A model generated the notes under the pieces. The model searched no databases. It had not been told where the DNA came from and worked only from the letters and a program-made list of their open reading frames with translations. Shown one piece after another: positions 5,630 to 9,770 of a stretch of DNA of 64,000 bases. This stretch comes from Amycolatopsis viridis. Its GTDB lineage: Bacteria; Actinomycetota; Actinomycetes; Mycobacteriales; Pseudonocardiaceae. The position numbers and the translations under genes are program-made. Numbering within the stretch: position 1 is the stretch's first letter; each line of letters opens with the position of its first letter. Where the stretch lies: the NCBI RefSeq assembly GCF_011758765.1, contig NZ_JAANOU010000001.1, forward strand, positions 2,666,001 to 2,730,000. The letters are read 5' to 3'.

Positions 5630-5816
5630 TTCCCCGGGCGCTGCGCCGTTGGCGGGCTGGGCTGCCCGCGGCGCCCGGCGTGGTGCCCAGGAGCCGGTGG
5701 TCTGCCGGGTTTCGCTGATCGCTTTCGCCGGTTGCTTCCGCGTGGGAGGCTGTCCGGTAACGAAACGCGGGACTGCGGAGTCTCCTCGGGTGAGGGCCCG
5801 GGGGACGAGGAGGACC

Positions 5817-7415
5817 ATGGCGGGGGACACGGACGCCGATGCCGAGCTGATCGGGGCGGTCCGCGGCGGCGATCTGGCTGCGTACGACACGCTCTTCCGG
5901 CGGCACCTGCCGGCCGCGCGCCGGGTGGCGGCGATGCTGTGGCGGGACCGGGCCGAGGTCGACGACCTGGTGGCTGAATCGTTCCTGCGGGTGTTCGCGG
6001 CGATCCGGGACGGGGCCGGCCCGGCCGACCGGTTCCGCCCGTACCTGCTGGTGACGTTGCGGAACCTGGCGATGGACTGGGGGCGCCGCCGCGAGCGGTG
6101 CGACCCGTGGGCCGCGACCGGCGACGACGGCGCGCCCGGGGTCGAGGAGATCGTTATCGACCGGCTGACCGGCGAGGTCGCGCGGTCGGCGTTCGAGACG
6201 CTGCCCGCGCGCTGGCGGTACGTGTTGTGGCACACCGAGATGCTCGGCACCGGGCCGGGGAAGCTCGCCGGCGAGCTCGGGATGACGGCCAACGGGGTCG
6301 CCGCGCTCGCGGTACGGGCGCGCGAGGGGTTGCGGCAGGCGTTCCTGCAGGCCCACGTGCCCGCCGCGCGCACCGAGGAGTGCCGCACCGTCCGGCGGCG
6401 GCTGGCGGCGTGGACCCGGGGCAAGGTCACCGCGCGGCAGCGGCAGGCGGTGTCGGCGCACCTCGCGCGGTGCCCGAAGTGCCAGCGGATCGCCGCCGCG
6501 CTGGAGACGGTCAACGGCGGGCTGCCGGCGCTGGTCCCGCTGCTGGGACGGTTGCTCGGCGGCGGGCCGGCCGTACCCGCCGGGGAAGCCGCCTCGGTCG
6601 CGGCCGGTGGTGGCGCTCCCGCCGCGTCCGCGGTGTGGGGCGGGGCGTCCGCGGCGCTGTCGAAGGTCGCGGCGGCGGCGACGCTCGCCGCGGTGGCGGC
6701 GGTGGCCGGGCCGGTGGTGACCGCGGAGCCGCCGCCCGGAACCGCGGCAGCAGCGCCGGTCGTGGCCAGGACGCCGGCGGTGCCCGCCGCCCCGGCTGCC
6801 CCGGCGCGGCGCGGACCCGGCGCCCAGCGGCCCACCGGAGCACAGCCGGAAACCGGCGGTATCGCGCCGGTCGAGGGCACCGCCGGACAGCGCACCACGA
6901 CCAACCCCGGCCCGGCCGCGGCCGACGGCCCGCCCGGCGGCACGGACCCCGGCGCCGGCGCGAACGGCCATCGCCGCGGGCGCGGCAACGGGGCCGGGAC
7001 GGGTGACTTCACCACCGAGGCCGATCGCGGTGACGCCGCCGATGCGCCGGGCCGGTACCACCGCCCAGCCGCGGGGACACCCCCGGACGCCAACGGCAAG
7101 GCCGGTGGCCGCGGTGCCGGAAAGCCCGTGGGTGCAGGGAAAAACGACTTCACCACCAAGGCCGATCGCGATGGCGCCGCCGATGGTCCGGGCCGGCACC
7201 ACCGCCCAGCGTCGACGACGGCCGCGGATGACTCCGGCACCGGTTCCGACGCGGCGAATGCCGGTGCAGTTGCGCACGGCAAGGGAGATGGCGCCACGAA
7301 GCCCGGCACGCTCGGGCACGGTGCGGGCCACCGCGCCGCGGACGCCCCGGCGAGGCGTAGCCCTGACCTGGGCACCGGTAGTGCCGCCGCCGGAGCGGCT
7401 GCGCCGGGGCGGTAG
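5817..7415 (+). CDS. ECF-type sigma factor fused to zinc finger, TM segment and repeat tail
   Basis: The first 165 residues look like an extracytoplasmic-function sigma factor, with a region 2 containing EVDDLVAESFLRVFAAI and a region 4 helix-turn-helix near GKLAGELGMTANGVAALAVR. Next comes a zinc-finger segment of the anti-sigma type, H215-x3-C219-x2-C222. A hydrophobic stretch at about 281-303 could span the membrane. The rest, to residue 532, is Pro/Ala/Gly/Thr-rich and holds two copies of a 47-residue repeat beginning DFTT-ADR (DNA copies at about 7005 and 7146). The ATG at 5817 has GAGGAGG just upstream. If inserted in the membrane, the tail would lie outside the cell, so sigma factor and sensor would be one chain. 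No separate anti-sigma gene follows. Confidence 0.8.
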   Translation: MAGDTDADAELIGAVRGGDLAAYDTLFRRHLPAARRVAAMLWRDRAEVDDLVAESFLRVFAAIRDGAGPADRFRPYLLVTLRNLAMDWGRRRERCDPWAATGDDGAPGVEEIVIDRLTGEVARSAFETLPARWRYVLWHTEMLGTGPGKLAGELGMTANGVAALAVRAREGLRQAFLQAHVPAARTEECRTVRRRLAAWTRGKVTARQRQAVSAHLARCPKCQRIAAALETVNGGLPALVPLLGRLLGGGPAVPAGEAASVAAGGGAPAASAVWGGASAALSKVAAAATLAAVAAVAGPVVTAEPPPGTAAAAPVVARTPAVPAAPAAPARRGPGAQRPTGAQPETGGIAPVEGTAGQRTTTNPGPAAADGPPGGTDPGAGANGHRRGRGNGAGTGDFTTEADRGDAADAPGRYHRPAAGTPPDANGKAGGRGAGKPVGAGKNDFTTKADRDGAADGPGRHHRPASTTAADDSGTGSDAANAGAVAHGKGDGATKPGTLGHGAGHRAADAPARRSPDLGTGSAAAGAAAPGR

Positions 7416-7690
7416 CGGAGTAACACACACGGCCAGGCCCGGCACCGCGCCCAGCGCGCCGGCCGCGCCACGCCGGGTCCTCGCGAAGACCCCGCGAAGA
7501 CACGGCGAAGACACGGCGAACACCGGCGGTACCACGCGCGCCAGGCCGGCCACCGGTTACCGGGAGCCGGTCACCCGCACCCACGTCCGCTCGTACCCCG
7601 GGATACGGGCGTGGAACCGCGATCGCCGGTTCCGCGTCCACCGGGCCGAGAAGGAGGTCCGGTGGGGTAGACGAGATCTACTTCGGACTC

Positions 7691-7864
7691 GTGTTGGTGC
7701 CGCAGGGGCTCTGGATACTGATCAGCCCGCGGTCCGCGCGCGAGTGGTTGCACCGGCGGGACGGCGGCGGCTTCCGCGAGTTCAGCGACCGGGAACTGCT
7801 GCTCACCCGCGCCGCGGGTGCCGCGGGCATTCTGGTGTACGTGGCCGCGGAAATCTTGTTCTGA
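7691..7864 (+). CDS. Small membrane protein, start damaged or non-standard
   Basis: The reading frame runs from at least GAC at 7670 to the TGA at 7862-7864 and encodes DEIYFGLVLVPQGLWILISP, a charged middle, and a second hydrophobic helix AAGAAGILVYVAAEILF. That is two membrane helices joined by a polar loop, recalling the DUF6199 type. An excellent AAGGAGG (7651-7657) precedes a GTG at 7662, but that GTG is one base out of frame and meets TAG at once. One extra G in the GGGG run would give a perfect start, MGVDEIYFGLV. I list the first in-frame GTG (7691), but the gene may be frameshifted at its start or contain a sequencing error. Confidence 0.45.
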   Translation: MLVPQGLWILISPRSAREWLHRRDGGGFREFSDRELLLTRAAGAAGILVYVAAEILF

Positions 7865-8435
7865 GCGCTCGCACGGAGACGGTCCGGCGGCCACAGCTCG
7901 AGCACATCCACCGACACCCGCACAGCCGGGTCGTTTCCGTGCCGAGAGGCCCCATGGCGTGGGCGTACTGGGCCCAGGTGCGCACGGGGTGGGGCACCAG
8001 ACGCTGCCCGGGTTCGCGCAGGATGACCTGCCACACCGTGGACCGCGCGAGACACCGCGGCGATGGCTGCCAGCAGCGGCCCGTCCCGGGCCTCCAACAC
8101 GGCGCGGTCGATGTCCTGGATGAACTCGTTGCCGCCCAGCTCGACGATCACCGTGCGCCCGCCGGGCAGGTAGTCGTCAGCGCGGGCACCGGTGTGGACC
8201 ATCCCGGCACTGTGGTTCCACCTGGCGCCCGCCAAGCCGGTCACCCGGGGTGGCCCAGCCGTTCGCCGTGGCCACGGCCGACGGGGTGGCGGGCGCGCCC
8301 GGCGTCAAGGGTGAACAGCGGTGTCAGCACGGCGCCCGCGAACACGGCGGCGAATGCGGTGCCGCTGATGCCTTTGGTGCGCGGATTCTGCACCGCCCCG
8401 CGGTGCTCGGCATGCCCAGCTTCGGGGCCCACCGG
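7865..8435 (-). pseudogene. Degenerate SGNH/GDSL-type esterase
   Basis: Fragments of one protein appear in different minus-strand frames. The first is a signal-peptide-like piece (TAFAAVFAGAVLTPLF, about 8360-8310). Next, in another frame, comes LAGARWNHSAGMVHTGARAD, then DDYLPGG and VIVELGGNEFIQDID (8244 to about 8050), which match the middle of SGNH hydrolases. The sequence then shifts to VWQVILREPGQRLVPH and TWAQYAHAM (about 8040-7960), and shifts again to a piece ending LELWPPDRL. The GDS nucleophile block is missing. At least two or three frame changes show that the gene is dead. The C-terminal end abuts the small membrane gene on the other strand. Confidence 0.5.
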
Positions 8436-8570
8436 GACACGCGCGCCGGCACCGGCGAACCGGGGTGCGGCATGATCGCCACGCCTGCCTGCGTGCGTCT
8501 TGTTCCGCCGTGTGCCGCGTGGCGGCCGCGCAGCCCGTCCCGCCGGGCCGGACGGCCTGCCCCGGCGCGC

Positions 8571-9770
8571 TCAGCCGAGCCAGCGGACCGGGTCGGCCAG
8601 GACCGCCGCCAGTTCGTGGTAGGCGGCGCCGGTCGCGCCCGGAGCGGAGTTGTCCGGCGCCGCGTGGATCGCCGGCGCGGTCCACCTGGCGGACAGCACC
8701 CGCGCGCGCAGCCGGGCCGCCAGTTCCGGTCGCAACAGGTCGGCGACCTGTGCGAGGTGCCCGCCGAGCACCACCGTCGGGATGTCCAGCACGTTGATCA
8801 CCCCGGCCAGCGCCACTCCCAGCGCATGGGCCGCCGCCGTCACCGCCGCGCGTGCCCGGGCGTCGCCCGCCGCGGCCAGCTCCGCGAGGTGCGCCGGGGT
8901 GGAGGCGGGCGGCAAACCGGCGGCGGCGAGCAGCGCGTCCCGGCCCGCGTAGGTTTCCAGGCAGCCGGTCGACCCGCACCGGCACGCCGGGCCCGCCGGG
9001 TCGACGCACACGTGCCCGATCTCGCCGGCCCACCCGTGCTGCCCCGCCATCACCGCACCACCCACCACCGCCGCGCCGCCGATGCCGATCTCACCGGAGA
9101 GGTACACGAAGTCGGCGAACGGCCCGGGGCGCCCGGGGGCGACCTCGGCGACCGTGCGGGCGGCGAGGTTCGCCTCGTTGCCCGCACGCAACGGCAGTCC
9201 CGCCACCGCGGCCGGGGCCAGCAGATCCGCCGGGCGCACGCCGGACCACCCGAGGTTCGGGGCGCGCAGCAGGGCGCCGTCCGCCGCGGCGACGATTCCG
9301 GGCAGGGCGAGGCCCGCGCCGACCAGCCGCAGCTCGCCGGGCAGCCCGCCGAGGACCCGCGCCGCCAGCGTGCCCAGCCGGGCCAGTGCGCGCGCCGGGT
9401 CGCTTCCCACCAGGTCGGCGTACTCCAGCGACTCGGCGACCACCCGGCCCCGCAGGTCGATCACCCGCACCGCGAGGAACCCGGCGTTGACCTGCAATCC
9501 CAGCGCGGCGAGCCGGGACCCGGGCACCAGGGGAGTGGCCGGACGGCCGCGCCGGCCGCCGCCGTCCGGTTCGATCTCGGCGAGCACCCCCGCCGCCACC
9601 AGTTCGTCGGCCAGCCGCGTCGCCGTGGTGCGGGTCATCGAGGTCGCCGCCGCCACGTCCGCGCGCGACAGCGGCCGGGCCGACGCGCACACGGTGCGCG
9701 CCACCAGTGCCAGGTTTCTCGCCCGCAGGCTCGACTGACGTGCGCTGGTCTGCGGGCCGGGGACGGTCAC
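8571..9770 (-). CDS. ROK family transcriptional regulator
   Basis: The 399-residue protein has an N-terminal winged helix-turn-helix (LSRADVAAATSMTRTTATRLADELV) and a C-terminal ROK sugar-kinase-like fold. The ROK zinc motif is intact, C263-x-C-G-x-x-G-C270 followed by LETYAG, with the upstream His in GEIGHVCVD. The segment GLQVNAGF stands where sugar kinases carry a phosphate-binding DxGxT motif, so this is probably a sugar-sensing repressor without kinase activity. It lies 49 bp downstream of xylA on the same strand, and a XylR-like role is a reasonable inference. Confidence 0.9.
   Translation of the reverse strand: MTVPGPQTSARQSSLRARNLALVARTVCASARPLSRADVAAATSMTRTTATRLADELVAAGVLAEIEPDGGGRRGRPATPLVPGSRLAALGLQVNAGFLAVRVIDLRGRVVAESLEYADLVGSDPARALARLGTLAARVLGGLPGELRLVGAGLALPGIVAAADGALLRAPNLGWSGVRPADLLAPAAVAGLPLRAGNEANLAARTVAEVAPGRPGPFADFVYLSGEIGIGGAAVVGGAVMAGQHGWAGEIGHVCVDPAGPACRCGSTGCLETYAGRDALLAAAGLPPASTPAHLAELAAAGDARARAAVTAAAHALGVALAGVINVLDIPTVVLGGHLAQVADLLRPELAARLRARVLSARWTAPAIHAAPDNSAPGATGAAYHELAAVLADPVRWLG

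Follow-up and report, generated by a model that had tools for sequence, protein, structure and literature searches.

A putative membrane-tethered ECF sigma factor fused to a zinc anti-sigma domain, with a drifting tail, in Amycolatopsis viridis

The gene described here lies in a window of 64,000 nucleotides, the whole stretch of DNA analysed (G000:C1:2666001-2730000 of the 5.68-Mb genome), and encodes in a single chain an ECF sigma factor, a zinc anti-sigma (ZAS) domain, a hydrophobic helix and a low-complexity tail (Table 1). We think it rather likely that the product is a sigma factor and its anti-sigma factor in one, tethered to the membrane and released by cleavage. Judged by its domain order the protein is of the ECF48/52/53 kind, an architecture already known in Actinobacteria; the possible novelty is a branch in which a drifting, disordered tail replaces the outer sensor. 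A preliminary description of the gene had passed over both the known layout and the drift of the tail.

Table 1. Features of the fused sigma gene and its upstream region (window positions).
Feature	Position	Strand	Remarks
Conserved element GTAACG-N14-GGAGTCTC	5757..5784	+	in 6 of 9 aligned upstream regions; one base changed in L039
Fused gene: ECF sigma - ZAS - hydrophobic helix - tail	5817..7415	+	532 aa plus stop
Sigma region 2, residues 26-94	5892..6098	+	Pfam PF04542; helices of high pLDDT
Sigma region 4, about residues 109-180	6141..6356	+	inside NCBIfam sigma70-ECF match; 3hug_A alignment
ZAS zinc finger, residues 189-223 (C189, H215, C219, C222)	6381..6485	+	PF13490
Helix after CxxC, residues 220-246	6474..6554	+	AlphaFold2; ChrR match covers profile positions 202-261
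Predicted membrane helix, residues 284-302	6666..6722	+	hydropathy, shuffles, dN/dS
Low-complexity tail, residues 303-532	6723..7412	+	without Cys; dN/dS 0.45-1.0
Tail repeat, copy 1	6990..7098	+	109 nt
Tail repeat, copy 2	7131..7239	+	78% identity to copy 1

The sigma part and its zinc domain

The ATG of the reading frame is preceded by GAGGAGG, and matches to the protein within the genus share 72-96% identity with it. Two minus-strand reading frames that run across the gene (774 and 780 aa) were rejected as high-GC shadows, since the domains and the synonymous-site pattern both sit in the plus frame. Sigma regions 2 and 4, which the preliminary description had placed in one chain, are borne out by library matches above the respective cut-offs: Sigma70_r2 of Pfam (E 6e-10) and NCBIfam sigma70-ECF, the latter spanning residues 22-175. 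The Pfam model for region 4 leaves the window protein unmatched; it matches 28 of the 40 full-length proteins, window protein included, of our set A2. An AlphaFold2 model of residues 1-305, built from 68 alignment rows (mean pLDDT 78.6), shows confident helices for sigma2, sigma4 and the zinc domain, with pLDDT below 50 from residue 249 onward. Its top fold matches are solved sigma factors, and sigma4 of the model aligns to the solved 3hug_A over residues 104-182 (Z 9.2). The protein thus has regions 2 and 4 only, as an ECF sigma factor should, and its model aligns to both sigma2 and sigma4 of solved ECF sigma factors.

The zinc domain follows behind sigma region 4, as it does in ECF48, ECF52 and ECF53, and is recognised by zf-HC2 above the Pfam cut-off (E 3e-8), by its ligands and by its likeness to known anti-sigma factors. 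An H-x3-C-x2-C segment had been noted before; this gives three of the ligands correctly but leaves out the fourth, C189. The full set occurs in 111 of 114 distinct relatives, counted over extracted ORFs that were not chosen by zinc pattern. The three exceptions are a broken copy in G013 (CHCR), L034, in which H replaces the first C, and L050, from which the zinc domain is missing. Over the zinc domain, a family profile (A3) matches ChrR (2q1z_B, E 5.6e-5) and RslA (3hug_B, E 6e-4), each a protein distinct from its sigma factor. The profile was built from 68 of 88 references that were all picked for H-x3-C-x2-C, so that its invariant H and C columns arise partly by construction. The modelled helix after CxxC probably belongs to the anti-sigma domain. 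The 50 VIA rows shown in the structure search leave the zinc domain uncovered, which we do not count as absence. Because the model has a pTM of 0.47 and comes without inter-domain error, docking of the zinc domain on the sigma part is something that we infer.

Eight zf-HC2 sites were found in the genome. Three are in sigma fusions, namely the window gene, L048 (721 aa) and L049 (484 aa), and the other five frames, read by eye, have no sigma part. The fused site is the only one of the eight in the window, and the earlier remark that no separate anti-sigma gene follows therefore holds for the zf-HC2 type, the type that the search covered.

Selection differs along the chain. In five pairs of sequences, which share members and in which the tails align poorly, dN/dS is 0.07-0.20 in all five for the sigma part (purifying selection), 0.04-0.25 in four for the zinc domain (0.77 in the closest pair, with few changes), 0.08-0.21 in four for linker plus helix (0.64 in one pair other than the closest) and 0.45-1.0 for the tail. 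The sigma part is conserved, the zinc domain and helix are mostly conserved, and the tail sequence is drifting.

Locus, clade and wider family

The window protein belongs to a clade of nine proteins in eight genomes, G003 having a second copy (L045). An open copy occurs in eight of the 19 genomes of the genus, its own genome included, where genus means the grouping of the search tool, the NCBI genus being wider. The copy in G013 is broken, with Cys changed to Arg in CxxC, and the nine other copies, the window's own included, are open frames of 379-592 aa. Eight of the nine clade proteins adjoin metH and xylA. The order metH - DUF6292 - sigma - ROK - xylA is kept in eight of nine other loci examined, among them the broken one, and the search around L045 did not find it; DUF6292 is named by a Pfam match, and metH, ROK and xylA are what we take these neighbours to be from their translations.

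Three further observations concern the same genome. Directly behind the sigma gene, an 11-bp unit (CGCGAAGACAC) is repeated in tandem about 3.5 times (window 7482-7520). Beyond it lies a hydrophobic 57-aa ORF with a GTG start (window 7691-7864, plus strand), 78% identical over 55 aa to a sequence in G001; the remaining loci searched gave no match to it at E 1e-4. At G000:C1:3508229-3508858 there is a sigma relative with in-frame TGA and TAG, perhaps a shorter sigma gene (about 200 aa) followed by a remnant; similar matches with TGA are found in G001 and G008.

The conserved element upstream of the gene is possibly an ECF-type promoter of the fused sigma gene itself. When the strict pattern GTAACG-N13-15-GGAGTCTC was searched, its sole match was the region upstream of the sigma gene, in five of six genomes (none in G001), and the control pattern gave zero matches. 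A looser pattern gave 15 matches in the six genomes against 12 for its control, and we therefore claim no regulon. A site reading GTAACC-N15-GGAGTC (L175, G000:C1:2931113-2931138) stands in five of six genomes upstream of a gene that is presumably for an M55-type D-aminopeptidase. Its GGAGTC sits inside the inverted repeat GAGTC-AAC-GACTC; the site is possibly an operator and was therefore excluded as promoter evidence.

For the wider family, the scan of genome contigs contributed the best 80 of 547 relatives. All 40 proteins of A2 match both Sigma70_r2 and zf-HC2. Their outer parts match DUF11 in three cases, DUF642 in one and CARDB in one (E up to 0.001), which leaves most outer parts unnamed by Pfam at that threshold. 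Two relatives from Actinocrispum and Actinophytocola, L061:9959-10717 and L112:9995-10744, are about 250 aa long and end right behind the zinc domain, without a membrane helix; the reading frames downstream of them are seemingly unrelated. In a first tree (48 rows; the bootstrap had not quite settled) the clade has support of 100/100, the clade with L061 and L112 has 92/90, and the group enlarged by L060, L098 and L104 has 82/98. In a second tree (43 rows, with L144) the clade has only 63/99 and the 14-row group 63/98, and given this drop we make no claim on the deep placement of the clade.

Predicted helix, tail and classification

The hydrophobic helix of the preliminary description is confirmed as a stretch at residues 284-302 with a mean Kyte-Doolittle value of 1.98; when the residues behind the zinc domain are shuffled, 6 of 5000 trials reach this peak. 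It is the one helix predicted by hydropathy, where the ECF48/52/53 kind has one or two membrane helices, and shows purifying selection in four of the five pairs. The stretch is present in all nine clade members (Kyte-Doolittle 1.65-2.12), each with a recognisable core, and in two of the nine the shuffles reach the peak often (353 and 265 of 5000). The window helix is Ala-rich and marginal, and on a per-residue insertion scale it would be less favourable than in longer relatives.

The orientation of the chain is suggested by its relatives. We compared 86 non-clade rows. Truncated ORFs and duplicates of identical sequence were left out, as were rows that lack the plain pattern or have too little sequence behind the zinc domain; L061, L112, L109, L118, L135, L137 and L144 are among the rows dropped by this rule, and near-identical rows of two collections remain in the set. 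Mean K+R falls from 1.30 ahead of the stretch to 0.21 behind it; 73 rows have more ahead, 10 have the same number on both sides and 3 have fewer. For D+E the means near the helix are 0.10 before and 1.31 after. Among those relatives with tail Cys, 67 of 76 have an even number. The charge pattern and the even numbers fit an N-inside, C-outside arrangement with paired cysteines in most of the family. The window clade on its own is K/R symmetric, with 0.78 before and 0.78 after, and has no tail Cys, so that its topology, with the tail outside the cell, is one that we infer from the wider family. The tethering suggested in the preliminary description accordingly agrees with the hydrophobic stretch and with the family pattern, but finds no echo in the charges of the clade itself.

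The tail has the 230 residues originally given for it, with 24% Ala, 20% Gly, 12% Pro and zero Cys, and no Pfam match up to E 1. To call it a repeat tail was generous: one 109-nt unit does occur twice, its 78% identical copies spaced 141 nt, but a tandem-repeat array was considered and rejected, there being no strong array in the window gene. Repeats are found in orthologues. L040 has an 18-bp unit 12.7 times, and L044 (G003, sigma gene 7850-9625, minus strand) has tandem repeats that also occur within a long insert, some 200 Gly/Ala/Ser-rich repeat residues between zinc domain and helix. Throughout the nine clade proteins the tail extends 105-230 residues behind the helix, lacks Cys and is net basic (+4 to +16). 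In most of the relatives examined the outer part is longer and usually contains cysteines, and in 62 of the 86 non-clade relatives the tail runs to at least 300 residues behind the helix. Cys-free tails also occur in 10 of the 86 rows, L145 being an eleventh, and the lack of Cys is thus by itself no proof of a missing sensor; L035 and L145 have tails that are Cys-free yet longer, and that look folded or match DUF642.

The tail probably acts by its presence, as a disordered spacer, a wall contact or protease bait, and not by its exact sequence. A more tentative reading, to which we give a fairly low probability, is that the clade is a sensor-less branch, in which a fast-drifting, Cys-free, disordered tail whose presence counts more than its sequence has replaced a folded outer sensor. 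Since some other relatives have Cys-free tails, a drifting-tail branch may be a repeated outcome and not specific to this clade.

How does the protein stand to the groups already described? In the account given in PMC8999054, ECF48, ECF52 and ECF53 of Actinobacteria are sigma factors whose chain continues into a ZAS domain with one or two membrane helices, in an extension of up to 400 residues, and are expected to be activated by proteolysis; the likeness of the window protein to ECF48 and ECF53 follows this published description of a fused zinc domain and membrane helices. ECF52, restricted to Actinobacteria, is characterised in PMC5826349 by an ECF sigma factor, a pfam13490 zinc finger, a membrane region and a long C-terminal extension, and SCO4117 of Streptomyces coelicolor is its studied example. 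The window protein has these elements in one chain, its membrane region being a predicted one. It differs in having no Pfam carbohydrate-binding domain, a C-terminal feature of ECF52. The extension of that group is proline-rich; the tail of the window protein is of low complexity, and Pro is not dominant in it. L144, from Streptomyces sp. NRRL S-337, has the same domain order with an NPCBM domain (E 1.2e-27), and its gene lies beside one for a TetR protein and one for a pyridine-nucleotide oxidoreductase. It is a candidate orthologue of SCO4117, on the grounds of the NPCBM domain and of the published atrA regulator-gene neighbourhood (PMC5826349). Core identity of the window protein is 37-39% to L144 against 46% to L048 of its own genome.

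Classification among the ECF groups, as proposed in the preliminary description, therefore leads to the ECF48/52/53 kind by domain order but, with no carbohydrate-binding domain found, not to a place in ECF52. For some ECF52 and ECF53 members the carbohydrate and glycosyl hydrolase domains are themselves predictions which, according to a 2024 review, still await experimental validation (PMC10766802). In the open-licence literature we found no paper on an Amycolatopsis ECF sigma factor with a C-terminal extension, which is weak evidence that the clade is undescribed.

Proposed mechanism and its alternatives

In the mechanism that we favour, the ZAS domain (about residues 187-246) would fold onto the sigma part and block access to RNA polymerase, and the helix at residues 284-302 would anchor the chain in the membrane, so oriented that the sigma part faces the cytoplasm and the tail the exterior. 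In response to a signal from the cell envelope, a first protease would cut outside the membrane and then a site-2 protease within it; the zinc domain would then be trimmed inside the cell, and the sigma factor so freed may activate its own promoter. The tether and proteolysis suggested in the preliminary description are plausible by analogy, matching a published proposal, and proteolytic release is also proposed for this architecture in PMC5826349. One fused sigma factor, IutY of Pseudomonas putida (ECF243), has been shown to be activated by regulated proteolysis (PMC8999054). It too joins sigma and anti-sigma in one membrane-bound chain, and we take it as a mechanistic parallel only; IutY serves iron-starvation cell-surface signalling in a Gram-negative.

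In favour of this mechanism we also count the Peptidase_M50 candidates of the genome (best E 6e-47), a family present in 14 of 14 control genomes too; a site-2 protease candidate lies at genome positions 4399433-4400509. Against the mechanism we count the marginal helix, the K/R symmetry of the clade, the two relatives without a membrane part (L061 and L112), and the pairs with high dN/dS, 0.77 for the zinc domain in the closest and 0.64 for linker plus helix in another.

The main rival to this mechanism, though in our judgement an unlikely one, has the zinc domain acting as a metal or thiol-redox switch, of a type known from separate zinc anti-sigma factors. The signal would be sensed inside the cell, the sigma factor would open through a conformational change without cleavage, and the helix would set no more than its location. 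The near-invariance of the four ligands (111 of 114 distinct ORFs) and the matches of the domain to ChrR and RslA agree with such a switch, as do L061 and L112, whose chains end just past the zinc domain and which one tree groups with the clade (92/90). A mere address tag, however, explains less well why the hydrophobic stretch is kept in nine of nine members and is under purifying selection in four of five pairs, and the published proposal for such an architecture is proteolysis (PMC8999054).

Less probable still is a cytoplasmic protein, whose hydrophobic stretch stays out of the membrane and whose tail is a disordered, mostly basic extension within the cell. The marginal, Ala-rich helix, the net basic tails of nine of nine clade members and the lack of K/R asymmetry in the clade would suit this arrangement; the N-inside, C-outside distribution of charges at the corresponding position in 73 of 86 relatives, the even Cys number in 67 of 76 relatives with tail Cys, and the helix core in nine of nine members argue against it. 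About as improbable, a decaying paralogue that has lost its outer part and whose remainder is disappearing, would account for the open copy in just eight of 19 genus genomes, the broken copy in G013 and the drifting tail, but sits badly with a sigma dN/dS of 0.07-0.20 in five of five pairs, open frames of 379-592 aa in the nine other copies, and synteny in eight of nine other loci.

Few fused sigma/anti-sigma proteins have been studied. The genome examined here holds three intact fused sigma factors with different tails and five non-fused zf-HC2 proteins, and relatives without the membrane part, with the drifting tail or with an outer domain allow the zinc domain, the tether and the outer domain to be compared as the switch. 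If the sensor-less reading is true, signalling in this clade would hinge on the protease accessibility of the tail or on its reach to the cell wall, and the sensor-less branch, the relatives that end at the zinc domain and those with outer domains would form a natural series testing each part.
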